Below, in pieces: positions 10,151-38,389 of a DNA stretch of 64,000 bases (the stretch's first letter is position 1; every line of letters begins with the position of its first letter). The notes below the pieces were generated by a model that searched no databases, was not told where the DNA came from, and saw only the letters and a program-made list of their open reading frames with translations. The DNA is from Ignavibacteria bacterium (GTDB taxonomy: Bacteria > Bacteroidota > Ignavibacteria > Tepidaquicellales > OLB5), in contig JAFLBX010000001.1 in the NCBI GenBank assembly GCA_017303675.1, positions 1,189,970 to 1,253,969 of the forward strand. Direction: 5' to 3'. The position numbers and the translations under genes were made by a program.

Positions 10151-11665
10151 TTATTTTTTAAGCTTCTCAATTACCCATTTTCTGAAATTAAAAGAGTTTA
10201 AAAATCTCTTTTCAGTTTCTTTATCTGCAAGTATTTCCAACTTTTCATTTAAATTTTTGAAGATCACATTAACATCCTCCTTAACGGCAGAATTTAACAT
10301 TCTTAAATTAGATATCAATATTTTTCCGGATTCATTCTTAAAGCCCTTTTTTTTGTAATATCTACTTGTTTTCTTAATCAATGATTCTGCAAGTTCAAAG
10401 TTTTCAAGCTCGTAATGCAGAATTACCGAAACTATGAGCATAGTAAGAAATAATTCCTCAAATTGCTGAGCACTTTTATGATTAATGAATTTTTGCTGCC
10501 ATACAAGTGCATTATTATATTCTTTGAACTCAAAAAATGAAATGATGCAGTAATAATATAAATTTAAAAGATACCTGGGACGAAGGTAATTTGTATGAAG
10601 CTCAATTTCTCTTTCGAAATTAAGGATGGCATTGTGAAATCCATCCCTGTTAAGAACAGTATATTGATATCCAATAAGCATTTGAAAATAATAATACCAA
10701 TTTAATGCTTTTATAGCCGGGCTCATTCTGCTGTTTAAAACCATGTCGAGGGATTTTTTCATTTTAACAAGGTAACTTTCTATTTTAAAATTCTTAGAAA
10801 TGCCGGTTTCTGTACCTAAGGCATAATTAATAAAATCATATAATCTGCTTATATATTTTTCCGGGTAGTTTTTTATTACTTCCGGGTATTGCTCCATTAG
10901 CTGTACTGCCTTTTCTCTGTAATAAAGACTTTTCTCATCATTCAGAAGAAACCTGTATGCTTTTATTTTTATCCTGAACAGTTCAAGCTTGCTTAAGTAA
11001 TCAGCAGCTTTTGATTCATTCTCTACTTCCGGGATTTCCAGAATTTTAAGTATCTTTTCCTGAAAGTCCGGATCATTGCTGTATGACCATTTAGAAGTAA
11101 TTATGTTAAGCTTATTGTTCAGTGTTTTATATAATGAAACATTTCTGAGATTTTCCAATGCTTCATGTTTCTCTTTATTTAATCTCTCAAGTAATTCCAT
11201 TGAGTTTTTTGAATACTCATGTGCAGTAATATATTCTTCTGTTTCAAGTAACTTGTATAAAAGTTCATAATGAAAATTTACCTTTGAAGTTTCTTTGGTT
11301 TTGTTTAACAGTTTCCTTGCAGCGTTGTTTAGATTTTTTTCACTAAGTAAGCGGATCTTTGATAAATTTTGGTTAATAATTGTTTCACTATCTTTATCTG
11401 CATGATATTCATATAAAGCTTGCAGTATTAAATCGAACAAATAGTTTTTTCCTACATGAATCTGGTTTATAAATTTATCGTTTCCAAAGCATTTTTTTAC
11501 ATAATTCTCGTCATACCCGTTTTTGGATTTATTTATTATTTCAAAAAGTTTTACGTATTTATTTCCTGAACCAAGTACGTGACGTTTTGAAAACTTTTTA
11601 AAATATATTTTTTCCCCTTTTGTAAGAGATTTAATCAATTTATATAATGTATCCGCAGGTTTCAT
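10151..11665 (-). CDS. conserved all-helical protein of unknown function (paralogue of the 24.7-26.1 kb gene)
   Basis: 504 residues with no signal peptide or membrane segment. It is rich in Leu, Lys, Glu and Tyr, and predicted by eye to be almost wholly alpha-helical, as in TPR-like arrays. The N-terminal segment (LIKSLTKGEKIYFKKF, then KLFEIINKSK) follows the same pattern as the 483-residue protein at 24696-26147 (LKKLNKAELKEFSEF, then ALFGELKKF). I take them as divergent members of one family found in Ignavibacteria-like genomes. The gene is visibly more AT-rich than its neighbours. I assign no function. Confidence 0.85.
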   Translation of the reverse strand: MKPADTLYKLIKSLTKGEKIYFKKFSKRHVLGSGNKYVKLFEIINKSKNGYDENYVKKCFGNDKFINQIHVGKNYLFDLILQALYEYHADKDSETIINQNLSKIRLLSEKNLNNAARKLLNKTKETSKVNFHYELLYKLLETEEYITAHEYSKNSMELLERLNKEKHEALENLRNVSLYKTLNNKLNIITSKWSYSNDPDFQEKILKILEIPEVENESKAADYLSKLELFRIKIKAYRFLLNDEKSLYYREKAVQLMEQYPEVIKNYPEKYISRLYDFINYALGTETGISKNFKIESYLVKMKKSLDMVLNSRMSPAIKALNWYYYFQMLIGYQYTVLNRDGFHNAILNFEREIELHTNYLRPRYLLNLYYYCIISFFEFKEYNNALVWQQKFINHKSAQQFEELFLTMLIVSVILHYELENFELAESLIKKTSRYYKKKGFKNESGKILISNLRMLNSAVKEDVNVIFKNLNEKLEILADKETEKRFLNSFNFRKWVIEKLKK

Positions 11666-11862: not shown

Positions 11863-13494
11863 ATGAAAAAATTGATTATTCTTTTTTTAGTATTATTCTT
11901 ATCAATTAACTTGAATTTATTTTCCCAGGTTTCTCAACAATGGGCAACAAGATACAATGGAAGTTCTAATGGCAGCGATTATGCCAATGATATTAAAATT
12001 GATCTTGCCGGGAACATTATAGTAACTGGTACAAGTCAAGGAAGTAATGATCTGAATTACATGACTATAAAATATAATTCCGCCGGTGTGCAGCAATGGA
12101 TAAGGACTTACGATGGCTTACAGGGAGAAGATGTAGCCGAAGCAGTTGCAGTAGATTTTTCAGGGAATGTTTTCGTTACCGGAAGATCAAGTGTTTCCGG
12201 GTCCGGTTTCAATTTTTATACTCAAAAAATGAACTCATCAGGAACTGTGCTATGGGGGACTTATTATAACGGACCCGGAAACGGTGATGATAAAGCACAT
12301 GCCATAGTTGTAGATGCACTTGGTAATGTGTATGTTGGCGGAGTAAGTACTGGCAGCGGAACAGGTCCGGATTTTTGCCTGGTTAAATATAATGCCGCCG
12401 GTGTTCAGCAATGGGCTTACAGGTATAACGCACCTGCAAACAGTTGGGATGAATTGGTAGATTTTAAAATTGATGCAGCCGGCAACAATCTGTATTTGAC
12501 GGGTTTTGGAAACTATGGCGCGCCTGATTATTCTGATTATGTGACAATAAAAGTTAATTCTGCCGGTACTCAGCAGTGGATAAAAAGATATAATGGAGGC
12601 GGCTCAGACCAGGCAACTTCTATTACGGTTGATGCATCCGGTAATTCATACGTAACAGGTTGGTTTTCTGATGCCAATTCTTGGGAATCATATTCAACTG
12701 TAAAATATAATTCTGCAGGTACACAGATCTGGTTTGCTCATTACGATGGACCAGGTCAAAGAATAGATATTCCTGCTGATATTGAAACAGATGCTTCGGG
12801 GAATGTGTTCGTTACAGGAAGAAGCCAGGGCGCTAATTTGCTTTATGATTTTGCAACAGTAAAGTATAATTCATCAGGGGCTCAGCAGTGGGCAAACAGG
12901 TGGATAGGTATAGGTTCAAACCAGTATTCTTATGCATCTGCACTGGAGCTTGATGCCGCTGGTAATGTGTATGTTGGCGGTTACAGCGGCGCTTCTGCTA
13001 TTCTGCTAGATTATGCCGTGGTTAGGTACAGCAATGCAGGCGCTCAGCAATGGTGGATAAAATATAACGGTCCCGCAGGAGGCAACGATATTATTTCATC
13101 TATTGTATTAGATGGCTCCGCTAATGTTTATGTTACGGGCAGCAGCGCCGGAAGCGGCACAGGAAATGACATGGCTACTATTAAATATTCTCAAACAGTA
13201 GGTATTCAGCCGGTTTCAAATGAATTACCGGAGAAATTTGAATTATCTCAAAATTATCCAAATCCGTTTAATCCTGCAACAACTATTAACTTTCAGTTAC
13301 CTGAAAGCGGGTTTGTAAAATTAACTGTTTTTGATGCTTTGGGAAATTTAGTTGATATAATAGCAAATGAATATTTTAATGCTGGTTATTACACAGCTGA
13401 GTTTAAAGCAGAAAAACTTTCTTCTGGAGTATATTTTTATAAAATTGAAACAGAAAATTTTCAGAATGTTAAAAAGATGATGCTTATTAAATGA
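11863..13494 (+). CDS. secreted SBBP-repeat beta-propeller protein with T9SS tail
   Basis: 543 residues. The signal peptide (MKKLIILFLVLFLSINLNLFSQ) is followed by about nine repeats of roughly 50 residues with the pattern DAAGNVYVTGxSxGxGxD...TVKYNSAGxQQW. This is the seven-bladed-propeller SBBP repeat. The protein ends with a T9SS sorting tail containing NYPNPFNPATTINFQLP and KKMMLIK. A clear AAGGAG ribosome site supports the ATG. A terminator follows at 13524-13548. It is probably a surface or secreted binding protein; the ligand is unknown. Confidence 0.92.
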   Translation: MKKLIILFLVLFLSINLNLFSQVSQQWATRYNGSSNGSDYANDIKIDLAGNIIVTGTSQGSNDLNYMTIKYNSAGVQQWIRTYDGLQGEDVAEAVAVDFSGNVFVTGRSSVSGSGFNFYTQKMNSSGTVLWGTYYNGPGNGDDKAHAIVVDALGNVYVGGVSTGSGTGPDFCLVKYNAAGVQQWAYRYNAPANSWDELVDFKIDAAGNNLYLTGFGNYGAPDYSDYVTIKVNSAGTQQWIKRYNGGGSDQATSITVDASGNSYVTGWFSDANSWESYSTVKYNSAGTQIWFAHYDGPGQRIDIPADIETDASGNVFVTGRSQGANLLYDFATVKYNSSGAQQWANRWIGIGSNQYSYASALELDAAGNVYVGGYSGASAILLDYAVVRYSNAGAQQWWIKYNGPAGGNDIISSIVLDGSANVYVTGSSAGSGTGNDMATIKYSQTVGIQPVSNELPEKFELSQNYPNPFNPATTINFQLPESGFVKLTVFDALGNLVDIIANEYFNAGYYTAEFKAEKLSSGVYFYKIETENFQNVKKMMLIK

Positions 13495-24695: not shown

Positions 24696-26147
24696 TTATG
24701 GATTAATTTCACTGATTTTTAAAAACATCCATTCCTGCAATTGACCCCTTAGCATATTTTCTGTTTCGTTGCGTATAATTTGTATATTTTCAGCCGATTC
24801 ACCCAGCTTTATCTTAAATAACCTGTGCAGCAGGTTAATGAATATTTCATCATTATCGCGCTCTCTCAGAGGCAGCTGCTTATCGGTTTTAAGTGAATGT
24901 TTTATGGCGTCATATAATGAAAAGAATGCCTCAATATGCCTGAGCTCATAATATATCCGCAGCTGCAGGATTTTTGAGCGTGAGCGTATCCAGTAATTAT
25001 CATTTGTCACACGGCTCAGGTGCTCAAGGGATGTTTCAAACTTCCCTTCAGAAAAATAATATCTCGAAACCGAATAATTGTACATGGAATCCCTGAACTC
25101 CGGAAGCAGCTTATCCGCGTATTCATCTATGAATGATTTTGTCCATTCATTTTTCCCCAGCGAAAGCGCCGTGGTTACAACATTGTTGTAAATTGTAATA
25201 TGCAGATGCTGTTCGTTCTCATTCATTAACAGGTTCTCTTCGAACATTTTTTTATACAGGTCAAATAAGGTTCTGTTATACTCCTTTTCTCCCTTCGAGA
25301 TCTTCACAGCACAGTAGCCTGTGAAAGTTAAATAAAGGTTTGTAGTTTCAGTTCTGTCTATCCTTTTTTTATGCCTGTAAAACAGCTCCAGCGCCTTATT
25401 GAAGCTTGCGCTGTCGTTTAAATCACTCATAAATCTAGTGGTGTAATAGTATGTAAGTATCACGTCAGCTTCGAACCCGCCTTTTGCTTCAAGATACTCA
25501 AGCAATTTTGCCAGATCGACCCTGCTTTCGAATTCCGTTATGAATTCCGATAATCTCTCTGATTCATTTTTATGCCTGTAGTTCACAGCCTTCATTTTAA
25601 ATGCCATATATTTCGCAAGGAATGCGAATACGAGGTATTCGCCTTCTTTCATATTCAGGCTGATAAGCCTGTTCCTGTATATCTGTATATAATCCTTTTC
25701 CATTTCTATCAGGTGATTAAAATAAAAAATATTCCCTCCGTCAAACAGCTCATTCTTAAGTATTTCCCCGGCTTCGGTAATATTGCTTTCTGCCTGCTTA
25801 AGCAGGGCTTTTTCTTCAAGCGCTGAAATCAGCAGGTATTTGCCCAGCAGCTTTCGCTTTTCAAGATTTTTTACAGTCAGATATTTTTCCAGCAGGCTGT
25901 TAAGATCGCTCAATAAATTGCGCATTGTTTTATCTGTAAATTCCTTTTGCTGAAAGATCTGTGCGTAGATAATTTCCTTTGTAAAATTCCTGCTTTCAAA
26001 TGCCGGCCAGAATTTTTTTAATTCACCAAACAGCGCGGTTACATTTTTATTTTTATTGTAATACGGTGATAAAACAAACTCGCTGAATTCCTTAAGCTCA
26101 GCTTTGTTCAGTTTCTTCAGTGAATCGATTATTTTGCTTTTTATCAT
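24696..26147 (-). CDS. conserved all-helical protein of unknown function (paralogue of the 10.2-11.7 kb gene)
   Basis: 483 residues, no signal peptide or membrane segment, rich in Leu/Glu/Lys, probably an alpha-solenoid. The N-terminus SLKKLNKAELKEFSEFVLSPYYNKNKNV and ALFGELKKF parallels the 504-residue protein at 10151-11665. The ATG lies 4 bp after a perfect promoter -7 box, so its mRNA may be leaderless. It is AT-rich and stands alone, divergent from the ribbon-helix-helix gene 194 bp away. No function assigned. Confidence 0.85.
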   Translation of the reverse strand: MIKSKIIDSLKKLNKAELKEFSEFVLSPYYNKNKNVTALFGELKKFWPAFESRNFTKEIIYAQIFQQKEFTDKTMRNLLSDLNSLLEKYLTVKNLEKRKLLGKYLLISALEEKALLKQAESNITEAGEILKNELFDGGNIFYFNHLIEMEKDYIQIYRNRLISLNMKEGEYLVFAFLAKYMAFKMKAVNYRHKNESERLSEFITEFESRVDLAKLLEYLEAKGGFEADVILTYYYTTRFMSDLNDSASFNKALELFYRHKKRIDRTETTNLYLTFTGYCAVKISKGEKEYNRTLFDLYKKMFEENLLMNENEQHLHITIYNNVVTTALSLGKNEWTKSFIDEYADKLLPEFRDSMYNYSVSRYYFSEGKFETSLEHLSRVTNDNYWIRSRSKILQLRIYYELRHIEAFFSLYDAIKHSLKTDKQLPLRERDNDEIFINLLHRLFKIKLGESAENIQIIRNETENMLRGQLQEWMFLKISEINP

Positions 26148-26151
26148 AGCC

Positions 26152-26181
26152 CAAAATTACCCGTAAAAATACAGGGACAAA
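26152..26181 (-). promoter_or_regulatory. perfect promoter giving a probably leaderless mRNA
   Basis: On the minus strand: TTTG (26181-26178), 18 bp, TAATTTTG (26159-26152). Both boxes match the Bacteroidota consensus exactly. The ATG of the downstream gene is at 26147-26145, just where transcription should begin. Confidence 0.7.
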
Positions 26182-26271: not shown

Positions 26272-26303
26272 TTTGCTGCGGGGTGTTTGAAAAACTAACT
26301 TTG
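26272..26303 (+). promoter_or_regulatory. perfect promoter of the ribbon-helix-helix/lipoprotein operon
   Basis: TTTG (26272-26275), 20 bp, TAACTTTG (26296-26303): an exact match to TTTG-N17-23-TAnnTTTG. Predicted transcription start is near 26310, at the first base of the tandem operator-like repeats. Confidence 0.75.
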
Positions 26304-26309
26304 TATCGC

Positions 26310-26333
26310 TGTGCACATAAATGTGCACATAAA
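26310..26333 (+). promoter_or_regulatory. tandem palindromic repeats, candidate operator
   Basis: Two identical adjacent 12-mers TGTGCACATAAA, each holding the palindrome TGTGCACA. They cover the predicted transcription start and end 8 bp before the ATG of a small ribbon-helix-helix protein gene. Ribbon-helix-helix proteins typically bind tandem short palindromes spaced about one helical turn, so autoregulation is likely. Confidence 0.65.
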
Positions 26334-26341
26334 ACAGAAAA

Positions 26342-26500
26342 ATGAAAAATACTACAATTTCCCGCGGGTACAGGCTTAAGGCATCCACGCACAAGCTGAT
26401 AAAAAAAGTTCAGGAAGAGCTGAAGCTTAACCAGGATAAGGTAATTTTAAGAGCCGTTAAAATGTATTATAAAAGCATCAGAGCATCTGCAAAACAATAA
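26342..26500 (+). CDS. small ribbon-helix-helix-like DNA-binding protein
   Basis: 52 residues, ATG to TAA. It is basic. The pattern of a short strand (TTISRGYRLKA) followed by two helices (STHKLIKKVQEELKLNQ and DKVILRAVKMYYKSI) fits the Arc/MetJ/CopG ribbon-helix-helix fold. No toxin gene of a toxin-antitoxin pair follows. Instead a lipoprotein gene starts 53 bp downstream on the same strand without a promoter of its own, so the two are probably one transcription unit, with the protein acting as repressor at 26310-26333. The fold call rests on pattern only. Confidence 0.7.
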   Translation: MKNTTISRGYRLKASTHKLIKKVQEELKLNQDKVILRAVKMYYKSIRASAKQ

Positions 26501-26553
26501 AAGTGTTATACGATTTTTATAAAGATCAAAATTATAAACCAAACTCAATTAAA

Positions 26554-28302
26554 ATGAAACCAATAAAAAATTTTTTCATGAAAGCTTTAACCGGTATGAT
26601 GCTGTGTGCCGTTTTGTTTGCGCTTTCGGCAAATATAAACGGCTGCGGTGATTCAGCAGTTGATCCTGTTGTGAACGGCAACGGAACAACTAACACAACC
26701 GTTGCCGGTTTTGTTGTAAATGAAAATAAAGAGCCGGTTGCAGGTGCAACCGTTACCGTTCACGGTAACACTGCAGTAACTGGAGTAGGCGGTGAGTTTA
26801 TGTTTAACAATATTTCTGTTCCCGCAGGAAGGCTGTTTGTGAACGTTACAGCATCCGGATATTTTAACGCTACCAAAGCTGAGCAGCCAAAAAGCGGTGA
26901 TGTGACCCAGCTTAAGATCACAATGATAACCAAAACTATAACTCATACGATCAGCTCTACAACAGGCGGCAGCGCAGATCTGCCTAACGGCTCAAAAGTT
27001 GAAATAGCGCCGAATTCAGTTGTAACATCAGGCGGTTCAGTTTACAACGGTACTATCAATATGTCTGTGGTTTATATGGACCCCACTTCAGTATCATTTT
27101 CTGAAACTGTGCAGGGCGGTGATATGGCTGCCCTAAGAAGCGATTCATCATCAGCAACGCTTTATTCATTCGGGATACTTAAAGTAATAATGGAAGGTAC
27201 AGGCGGCGAAAGCCTTCAGCTTGCAGGTGGTTCAGCTTCAACCGTTACAACAAGCATTCCCCCAACTATGGTGGGCGATGCGCCTTCATCAATTCCGCTC
27301 TGGTTCTTTGATGAAGCAACAGGTCTGTGGCGCGAAGAAGGTACTGCCACTAAACAGGGTGATAAATATGTGGGCTCGGTTTCTCACTTTACTGACTGGA
27401 ACTGTGACCTTCCCGGAGCAACTGCAACAATTACAGGGAAAGTGCTTGATTGCAATGGGCAGCCGCTGCCGGGTATTACATTAAAAGTGGGGCAGGGTAC
27501 AACTGTGACCGATGGTGCGGGAAATTTCAGGCGTAACGTTCCGGCAGGTATAACCTTCCCCGTCAGCATCGAAGCTTCGCAGAATTTCGGGTTAAACGCG
27601 CCGCCGGTAAGTGTAGCGCCTATTTCAGCGGGTAATGTTTTCACCGTGCCTGATTTCGCTGTTGCATGTTTCCCGGTTATTACCGGCGCATTCCGTGATT
27701 GTGATAACAATCCTGTTTACGGTATAGTCAGCGCGAAGTGGGATAACCAGGTGCAGACATCAGTTCCAAATACAAGTAACGGTTTCAGTATGACAGTTGC
27801 GCCAAATAAAACAGCAGTGCTTCGGTTTGTATCATCAACGGGGATTGTAAAAGATACAACTATTCAAACTCCCTTAACTGCTGTTATACTCAACCTGGGT
27901 AATATAAGCCTTTGCGGTCAGGCTCCCACCGGCGAGAACAGCTTTACTATTAATGGCGCTGGATTCAACAACCAGTATGTAAATCTAAATGCCTCTGTTG
28001 CTATAGGCATTTATTACGTTGGCAAGAATGAAACAGCAATATCCGCAGTTAATGGAAACGGAGAGAACCTGGTTGTATTTTTCCCCGGCGGATCATCCGG
28101 GAATTTTACCGGCCAAAACAGTAACATTACTTACCAGGGGATAAACTTCTATTCATCCAAAGCAGCCAACGTTACGGTCACAACTTATGAAGGTGTTGGC
28201 GGCATCATTGAAGGTACATTCACCGGAACATATGAATCAACGCAGGGTACAGCCCAGATTAACGGAAGGTTCTTTGTGACGCGGCAGCCAAACCAGAATT
28301 AG
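26554..28302 (+). CDS. surface lipoprotein with carboxypeptidase-regulatory-like domains
   Basis: 582 residues from the ATG at 26554; a GTG at 26503 is in frame but lies 2 bp after the upstream stop and would bury the signal. Lipobox INGC (Cys31). A CarboxypepD_reg-like beta-sandwich follows (VAGFVVNENKEPVAGATVTVHG), then a middle region (SVVYMDPTSVSFSETVQGGDM and IPLWFFDEATGLWREEGTATKQ), and a second CarboxypepD-type domain (GKVLDCNGQPLPGITLKVGQ). A paralogue of the same layout is at 36653-38389. A terminator follows. Ligand unknown; probably sits on the outer membrane or cell surface. Confidence 0.88.
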   Translation: MKPIKNFFMKALTGMMLCAVLFALSANINGCGDSAVDPVVNGNGTTNTTVAGFVVNENKEPVAGATVTVHGNTAVTGVGGEFMFNNISVPAGRLFVNVTASGYFNATKAEQPKSGDVTQLKITMITKTITHTISSTTGGSADLPNGSKVEIAPNSVVTSGGSVYNGTINMSVVYMDPTSVSFSETVQGGDMAALRSDSSSATLYSFGILKVIMEGTGGESLQLAGGSASTVTTSIPPTMVGDAPSSIPLWFFDEATGLWREEGTATKQGDKYVGSVSHFTDWNCDLPGATATITGKVLDCNGQPLPGITLKVGQGTTVTDGAGNFRRNVPAGITFPVSIEASQNFGLNAPPVSVAPISAGNVFTVPDFAVACFPVITGAFRDCDNNPVYGIVSAKWDNQVQTSVPNTSNGFSMTVAPNKTAVLRFVSSTGIVKDTTIQTPLTAVILNLGNISLCGQAPTGENSFTINGAGFNNQYVNLNASVAIGIYYVGKNETAISAVNGNGENLVVFFPGGSSGNFTGQNSNITYQGINFYSSKAANVTVTTYEGVGGIIEGTFTGTYESTQGTAQINGRFFVTRQPNQN

Positions 28303-36567: not shown

Positions 36568-36611
36568 GGGCAAAATCGCTTTTGCCCTGTGGATATGTAA
36601 TTATATCTTTG
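36568..36611 (+). promoter_or_regulatory. perfect promoter with a palindrome over the -33 box (second lipoprotein)
   Basis: Promoter: TTTG (36581-36584), 19 bp, TATCTTTG (36604-36611). The -33 box is inside a perfect 8-bp inverted repeat with a 4-base loop, GGGCAAAA (36568-36575) and TTTTGCCC (36580-36587). As it has no T-run it is more likely an operator than a terminator of hutI. Transcription would begin near 36618, 35 bp before the ATG. Confidence 0.65.
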
Positions 36612-36652: not shown

Positions 36653-38389
36653 ATGAACAAAGTATTAAAGATAGTTTTAATAGCAAATCTTCTTATTATT
36701 CTGATAGCAGCCATAGGCTGCAGTGAAGATGGCAGTATAACACCTAACAATCCCAACAACAATGGCGGCAATACAACTACCACAATTTCAGGGATTGTAG
36801 TAAATGAAAACAACGAGCCGATCTCAGGGGTAACAGTTACAGCTCACGGTCAGATAAAAACTTCCGGTGCAAACGGTGAGTTTATGTTCACAGATATCAC
36901 TGTTCCCGCAAACAGGCTGTTTGTTAAAGCTGAAAAACACGGTTACTTTACGGCAACCCGCGGCGAACAGCCGAAACAGGGTGCAACTGTACTTAAGCTT
37001 ACAATGATGCCTAAATCTGTAACACATACAATTAACTCAACTTCAGGGGGAACGGCAAATCTAAACAACGGCTCAATGGTTGAAATTCAGCCCGGTTCTG
37101 TAGTCAAGAATGACGGTTCAACTTATGACGGGCCGGTTAATATGTCTGTGGTATATATGGACCCAACCGATGTTAAATTCACAGAAACAGTTGCAGGCGG
37201 CGATATGATGGCGAGAAGAAGTGATTCAAGTGACGCGGTACTGTATTCATACGGAATAATGAAGGTTGAAATGGAATCACCTTCAGGCGAAAAATTAAAC
37301 GTAACAGGCAGCAAGCCCTCAACTATTACAACAACTATCCCGGCATCACTGGTATCACAGGCGCCGGCAACAATTCCCCTCTGGTATTTTGATGAGAACA
37401 CAGGTCTCTGGCGTGAAGAAGGCGTTGCCACAAAACAGGGTAATAAATATGTAGGCACCGTTAATCACTTTACTGACTGGAACAATGATTACCCGGGCTA
37501 CTTAACAAGAGTAGAAGGAAAGGTTGTTGATTGCCAGGGTAATGCGATACCCGGTGTTGTTGTTAAAGTAGGACAGACAATTGCTGTAACTGATGAGTTC
37601 GGGAATTATGTCCGCACAGTTCCCACCGGCGTTGAATTCACAATATCAGTCGAAGCTTCACAGAATTTCGGCATGTCAAGCGCTCCTGTACAGATCCCTT
37701 CTTTAACTCAGAACCAGGTTTACCAGGTGCCGCTTTGCCAGCTTGCATGTTTCCCTGTAATTACCGGTACATTTAAAGATTGTAACAACAATAATATATT
37801 CGGTACACTTTCCGTTTTCTGGGATAACCGGAACCAGGGTATCATGCCTACACAGACTGGTGCATTCAGGATTTACGTTGCCCCGAATAAACAGGCGCGT
37901 TTGAAGTTCACTTCGTATAACGGGCAGGTGATAGATACAGTTGTTCAGACACCTTCCTCTGCAGTTACTTTGAATCTTGGCGATCTGCGTTCATGCAGCG
38001 GCAATCCGGGTGATTGCGAAAACAGCTTTGTTATCACAGGCGCCGGATATAATAATAAATATGTCAGGCTTCAGACTGCAGTTGCATTGGGTTACTACTC
38101 AGTTAAAGATAGCGTAACAGGATTATCTGCTGCGGGAATGGATACAGCTTCGTTTTCACTGGTATTTCCCGGCAAAACCACAGGTTCTTTTGCATGGCAG
38201 TCAGGCTCACTGGTTTATAAAAACCTTGTTTCAGCGGCAGCTAAAACATTGAACATCAATGTAACACATTACGGCGCTGTTGGAGAAGATATCAAAGGTA
38301 CATTCGAAGGAACATTCCAGTCAGGACAGGGTGAGATCACTATTACCAACGGTAAATTCTGTGTTGTGCGCCACCCCGATGTTGATTGA
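36653..38389 (+). CDS. surface lipoprotein with carboxypeptidase-regulatory-like domains (paralogue)
   Basis: 578 residues. Lipoprotein signal AIGC (Cys23), an Asn/Gly/Thr-rich linker, then the same domains as the 26.5 kb lipoprotein: ISGIVVNENNEPISGVTVTA, SVVYMDPTDVKFTETVAGGDM, IPLWYFDENTGLWREEG, GKVVDCQGNAIPGVVVKVGQ. Whole-length similarity is obvious, so the two genes arose by duplication. It has its own promoter and terminator and sits between hutI and ftcD. Unlike the first copy it has no ribbon-helix-helix gene before it. Function unknown. Confidence 0.88.
   Translation: MNKVLKIVLIANLLIILIAAIGCSEDGSITPNNPNNNGGNTTTTISGIVVNENNEPISGVTVTAHGQIKTSGANGEFMFTDITVPANRLFVKAEKHGYFTATRGEQPKQGATVLKLTMMPKSVTHTINSTSGGTANLNNGSMVEIQPGSVVKNDGSTYDGPVNMSVVYMDPTDVKFTETVAGGDMMARRSDSSDAVLYSYGIMKVEMESPSGEKLNVTGSKPSTITTTIPASLVSQAPATIPLWYFDENTGLWREEGVATKQGNKYVGTVNHFTDWNNDYPGYLTRVEGKVVDCQGNAIPGVVVKVGQTIAVTDEFGNYVRTVPTGVEFTISVEASQNFGMSSAPVQIPSLTQNQVYQVPLCQLACFPVITGTFKDCNNNNIFGTLSVFWDNRNQGIMPTQTGAFRIYVAPNKQARLKFTSYNGQVIDTVVQTPSSAVTLNLGDLRSCSGNPGDCENSFVITGAGYNNKYVRLQTAVALGYYSVKDSVTGLSAAGMDTASFSLVFPGKTTGSFAWQSGSLVYKNLVSAAAKTLNINVTHYGAVGEDIKGTFEGTFQSGQGEITITNGKFCVVRHPDVD

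Follow-up and report, generated by a model that had tools for sequence, protein, structure and literature searches.

A putative autorepressed operon with tandem GTGCAC operators, a secreted product and a divergent helical-repeat gene recurs in an Ignavibacteria lineage

Introduction

A 52-codon open reading frame (ORF) lies between a tandem 12-bp repeat and a lipoprotein-like gene in the 64-kb stretch of Ignavibacteria DNA analysed here (the window). The locus raises the question of whether so short a frame encodes a regulator of its own operon and, if it does, to what larger arrangement the operon belongs. The preliminary description regarded it as an autoregulated ribbon-helix-helix (RHH) unit controlling a surface lipoprotein. 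We examined the locus, its paralogues and its relatives in other genomes, and propose that the unit is one copy of a recurring module.

Results

The promoter-like site ahead of the short ORF consists of TTTG at 26272-26275, a 20-base spacer and TAACTTTG at 26296-26303, as had been claimed (Table 1). This exact arrangement is found once in the window. The looser pattern TTTG-N17-23-TAnnTTTG occurs 10 times, counting both strands, so the promoter alone is unremarkable and constitutes weak evidence. In the available text of PMC9723704 the -7 box is placed at -12 to -5; the predicted start site is therefore near 26308, with the GTGCAC cores just after it, at about +4 and +16. Two identical copies of TGTGCACATAAA, at 26310-26321 and 26322-26333, form the sole adjacent perfect 12-mer repeat of the window. 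Eight bases on, the 52-codon ORF begins with ATG at 26342, and its stop ends at 26500; repeat and ORF had both been described correctly. The lipoprotein gene (ATG at 26554) had been said to lack its own promoter, and none of this type was found in 26401-26560. The window lipoprotein has a paralogue at 36653-38389 (+), 53% identical across 533 aa; a separate promoter-like site precedes it at 36581, and no regulator was seen there.

Table 1. Features of the regulator locus and its divergent neighbour, in window coordinates.
Feature	Position	Strand	Basis or remark
Promoter-like site of the regulator operon, TTTG-N20-TAACTTTG	26272..26303	+	Sequence; relaxed pattern likewise in 56/77 family members
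Proposed operator, two TGTGCACATAAA	26310..26333	+	GTGCAC cores at 26311 and 26323, 12 bp apart
52-aa ribbon-helix-helix-like regulator	26342..26500	+	ORF, paralogues, profile comparison
582-aa secreted lipoprotein-like protein with carboxypeptidase-regulatory-like domains, presumed regulated product	26554..28302	+	
483-aa helical-repeat (TPR-like) divergent partner	24696..26147	-	One of 47 full-length own-genome paralogues
Promoter-like site of the 483-aa gene, TTTG-N18-TAATTTTG	26152..26181	-	About 130 bp from operator

Conservation of the short ORF in relatives had been posed as a check on the unit, and it was borne out. Six paralogues of the 52-aa protein are encoded in its own genome (3.65 Mb, two contigs), with G-Y-R-L and T-H among the positions invariant in the own-genome members; an eighth match there was taken as chance. 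When 98 related genomes and the own genome were searched at E 1e-3, every one of the 12 same-genus genomes gave matches (2 to 9 copies), as did both other genomes of the same family and 5 of 29 others of the same order. The sole matches among 55 other genomes of the class (G054, G083, G090 and G098) were weak (E 1e-4 to 1e-3) and lay inside long ORFs; these, like the L008 match, were dropped before all counts. The resulting set of 77 members comprises the 7 of the own genome and 70 from relatives in the order. A phylum sample of 296 genomes, searched at E 1e-5, returned the regulator from the own genome alone (1/296). The most conserved stretch of the family is GYR with a nearly invariant L.

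Operator pairs had likewise been expected upstream of homologues. Within 260 bp upstream, at least one GTGCAC was present in 71 of the 77 members and at least two in 56, six members having none and 15 more having one alone. GTGCAC was the top enriched 6-mer in these upstream regions (about 95-fold), which contained 138 sites; the other 453 kb of the loci had 33. The sites lie in the promoter or immediately behind it. Relative to the -7 box they cluster at -19, -12, +13 and +25, positions next to the -33 box or within the spacer for some and shortly downstream of the start for others. Together with the operators of the 71 members, these offsets form the sequence arrangement that autoregulation through repeated operators on the own promoter would produce. 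A chance tandem duplication beside a spurious short ORF might have been suspected, given that ORF and repeat are both short and that the ORF matches no Pfam or NCBIfam family; the 77 conserved members, 71 of them with operators, rule this out, and we give it virtually no credence.

Close pairs of the site were largely confined to regulator loci. The six occurrences of GTGCAC-N0-24-GTGCAC in the own genome were all 300 bp or less from a regulator. In 11 genomes taken together, a detected regulator stood at that distance from 38 of 49 close pairs but not from the other 11; the reversed pattern was counted 4 times. Close pairs with no detected regulator nearby were seen at G006:C427:11217, G002:C1:503029, G010:C99:5728 and G010:C108:12685, and such orphan pairs possibly mark missed regulators or other targets. 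At one locus (L107, G003:C343:17540-21617) no operator precedes the regulator, and its contig carries a GTGCAC pair at a distance of 3.9 kb; this module may have been split by an insertion. GTGCAC is mildly scarce in the window (4 observed against 8.5 expected; rank 20 of 64 palindromes). Restriction-site avoidance was rejected as the source of the GTGCAC pattern, since so mild a scarcity cannot account for enrichment at regulator promoters.

The distance between cores varied, with 12 bp (17 times), 11 bp (11 times) and 6 bp (6 times) the commonest values. The closest orthologue, in G005, retains the 20-base core TGTGCACATAAATGTGCACA with one change, while the remaining region has drifted. Where the 480-aa partners of two modules (described below) were at least 50% identical, site number and spacing were the same in 13 of 22 pairs. 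Spacing classes also tracked the regulator tree, requiring 12 changes against 31.3 in shuffles, none of 200 of which was as low; 54 of the 77 rows carried a label in this comparison, the 23 with one or no site being excluded. The sequence comparison indicates that regulator and operator spacing have diverged in step.

Because the GTGCAC core is common to all modules, cross-talk is possible: each RHH protein, as repressor or activator, might act on every module of its genome, making a single regulon of them. The concentration of conservation in GYR and the L would suit such sharing, as would those sites that lie inside the promoter spacer, where activation is conceivable. Core spacing that follows regulator subfamily favours private pairing instead, however, and a regulator bound shortly downstream of the predicted start, as at many of these sites, would usually repress. 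We consider a shared regulon rather unlikely.

The fold of the 52-aa protein was assessed from profiles and from a structure prediction. To the eye the sequence plausibly follows a strand-helix-helix order. Searched against Pfam, NCBIfam and PDB sequences, the protein gave no useful match, and matches to MIF, focal adhesion kinase and similar proteins were weak and were taken as chance. The profile phrog_3887, a 'transcriptional regulator', matched 13 of 62 members (best E 1.6e-5). An hhalign comparison of the 77-member alignment with 14 RHH_1 sequences from relatives aligned 43 columns end to end with a score of 20.5 and E 0.0011, at a reported probability of just 20%. Controls scored at most 13.8 in 50 column shuffles, 14.9 for the reversed alignment and 12.9 in 18 helical-family windows. 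Pfam RHH_1 did not match the window protein and was not among the families listed (25 of 34) for the 62 members; an RHH_1 search of the own genome and genus found no family member. An AlphaFold monomer, predicted from a two-row alignment, was one long helix (pLDDT 79, pTM 0.43). As monomers, CopG and Arc would be mostly disordered, according to the part of PMC4803016 available, so the single-helix model is weak evidence either way. The RHH fold of the preliminary description thus found some backing in the weak profile similarity (phrog_3887 and hhalign) and none in the single helix or in Pfam. We describe the protein as RHH-like, a putative fold taken from profiles against the structure prediction.

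A secreted or surface product behind the regulator proved to be the rule. A usable downstream ORF was present at 72 of the 77 loci, and by our own crude hydropathy score, which is not SignalP, 70 of these 72 were signal-like. A YPNPF-type linker, which we take to be associated with type IX secretion substrates of this group, was found in 33 downstream products. Many downstream genes start 80 bases or less from the regulator stop or overlap it, and at five loci (L063 and 4 of the 76 others) the regulator frame continues into the secreted gene. At L063, the own-genome case (G000:C1:1356064), no stop separates the regulator from the signal peptide that the secreted gene encodes (566 codons); AAGGAG precedes the internal start, and restart is therefore likelier than fusion. 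A small RHH-like protein encoded first in an operon with tandem palindromes could also be the antitoxin of a type II toxin-antitoxin pair. The preliminary description had argued against such a pair, and no toxin-like partner was seen at the 72 loci: the downstream genes are mostly large and, by the same score, almost always signal-like, not small toxins, which makes an antitoxin highly improbable.

Seventy of the 77 regulators, including all seven of the own genome, face a divergently transcribed member of a second family, of about 480 aa. At least two of the seven without such a neighbour sit at contig ends (G005_C177 and G001_C76). The preliminary description had read the locus as an autoregulated unit before a lipoprotein gene; it had missed this divergent gene and the multi-copy nature of the module. 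In the own genome the ~480-aa family has 47 full-length copies (median identity 21%), about 2% of the genome, and their distribution is strongly skewed, with 42 on one contig (C1, 2.06 Mb) and 5 on the other (C2, 1.60 Mb). All but two of the 47 are 461-498 aa long, the others being 501 and 505 aa; the 483 aa of the window member fall within the RRNPP receptor range of 250-500 aa. The family occurs in nearly all genomes of the order, with scores capped at 16, and in only 2 of 55 genomes from other orders of the class; Saprospiraceae and Chitinophagales have it too. Neither Pfam nor NCBIfam has a name for it. TPR-type Pfam models matched a minority of the 47 (best ANAPC3, 4.1e-6, in three; TPR_2 in three), and by HMM no TPR model matched the window member.

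An AlphaFold model of the 483-aa protein was a confident all-helical solenoid (pLDDT 94, pTM 0.88). Foldseek returned weak TPR matches, with E no better than 1.4e-3. In VIA-align the top 15 rows were all RRNPP proteins (Rap, NprR and relatives; Z 14.5-16.7), followed by LGN at 13.5; the matched part spans residues ~125-483, and the best match had Z 16.7 (rmsd 5.3, 292 residues). This likeness is no more than suggestive, since unrelated helical models reach Z 14 by arrangement alone. Conservation in the solenoid family peaks at residues 1-80, outside the RRNPP-matched part.

Forty of the 47 own-genome solenoid genes lack a 52-aa-type regulator, so the solenoid was not built for the regulator alone; these 40 also had no GTGCAC within 600 bp upstream. 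A divergent neighbour was present at 41 of the 47, and 32 of these 41 neighbours were signal-like against 15 of 45 window ORFs. A similar layout was seen for a 504-aa protein at 10151-11665 (-), opposite a secreted gene at 11863; it belongs to a second paralogous family, with seven own-genome copies, which gave no HMMER match to the 480-aa profile though the layout is alike.

Regulator and solenoid distances were correlated (Mantel r 0.43, 0 of 999 permutations as high). Of 70 regulators compared across genomes, 34 had their closest counterpart in another genome beside the closest 480-aa protein (1.2 expected), and 36 did not. For the window, the regulators next in similarity after the G005 orthologue (63% and 56% identical) have partners that are not among the next-nearest 480-aa proteins. 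RHH-bearing copies are scattered on the 480-aa tree, with 5 changes against a shuffled mean of 6.7. Because the distances correlate yet 36 of 70 are unmatched and the RHH-bearing copies are scattered, the pairing is real, and partners seem to have been swapped now and then.

These data also bear on whether the solenoid is unrelated to the regulator, serving the secreted protein in another way, for example as a chaperone or secretion adaptor, with the RHH gene a later addition to some pairs. The many solenoid genes that face signal-like neighbours with no regulator present would fit this reading, as would the scatter of RHH-bearing copies, and the distance of about 130 bp between the promoter-like site of the window solenoid and the operator was also counted against a link. 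On the other side, regulator and solenoid distances correlate beyond shuffles and nearly all regulators have a divergent solenoid. We hold an unrelated solenoid to be quite possible, if short of probable.

Discussion

Gene order, operator conservation, spacing that matches the regulator subfamily and signal-like products were read directly from the sequence. To these we add a fold, DNA binding, repression and a role for the solenoid, all of which we infer. A small RHH-type repressor would bind, as dimers, to GTGCAC palindromes about one helical turn apart. Bound at its own promoter or start site, it would keep both its own gene and the following secreted-protein or lipoprotein gene weakly transcribed. 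Each genome of the lineage carries several modules of this kind, every one with a secreted product of its own. As a best guess, the divergent ~480-aa solenoid would bind the repressor or a ligand and relieve repression. We consider this reading probable: an autorepressed RHH operon with a secreted payload, several modules per genome, and the divergent solenoid as the likely input device. The preliminary description is thus partly supported; it appears correct at its core, with repression itself still putative, and its frame was too small.

CopG reads TGCA cores one turn apart. In its resemblance to CopG, Arc and MetJ, the regulator shares small size (CopG 45 aa, Arc 53 aa) and a plausible strand-helix-helix pattern, as well as its place as first gene of the presumably controlled operon and the repeated operators, as these systems are described in the available parts of PMC6607859 and PMC4803016. 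It differs from them in belonging to a chromosomal, multi-copy 52-aa family that Pfam RHH_1 does not recognise, in its GTGCAC operator with spacings of 6 to 45 bp that track subfamily, and in lying ahead of genes for secreted surface proteins, with a divergent solenoid gene on its other side. The omega repressor of omega-epsilon-zeta also places RHH dimers on runs of short repeated operator units; its units are NATCACN heptads in a toxin-antitoxin operon, according to the same portion of PMC4803016, whereas here they are palindromic GTGCAC before genes for secreted products.

The second comparison is with RRNPP proteins (Rap, NprR, AimR). On plasmid pLS20, RappLS20 binds to the repressor RcopLS20, lifting repression when peptide is absent, as reported in the available text of PMC7430634. 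A ~480-aa helical-repeat protein encoded beside a small repressor gene recalls this pair, and by that analogy a sensor or anti-repressor would be the natural guess for the solenoid, whose residues ~125-483 match RapI, RapF, RapH and NprR best. Unlike RRNPP proteins, the solenoid gives no sequence match to them, and its Z is not far above that of unrelated helical models. The published RRNPP survey, in the portion available (PMC10075063), covered Firmicutes and viruses. A wider reading would make the ~480-aa solenoids a large family of Rap/NprR-like peptide- or protein-sensing receptors in Bacteroidota, about 50 per genome here, each controlling one secreted surface protein and, in the RHH modules, acting as anti-repressor of a dedicated small repressor. 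We think this distinctly unlikely; if true, it would mean dozens of independently gated surface proteins per cell.

Among the papers listed on Ignavibacteria and on RRNPP proteins in Bacteroidetes and Gram-negatives, none was found to describe such a module. With these comparisons a single short ORF becomes a regulatory module that is recognisable and repeatable and has a defined candidate operator, recurring several times per genome in an Ignavibacteria lineage with little described regulation. It comes with a nameless ~480-aa family encoded mostly opposite secreted-protein genes. The series of spacings (6, 7, 10, 11 and 12 bp, and longer) and the matching regulators may serve as a natural set for following the divergence of repressor and site after duplication.
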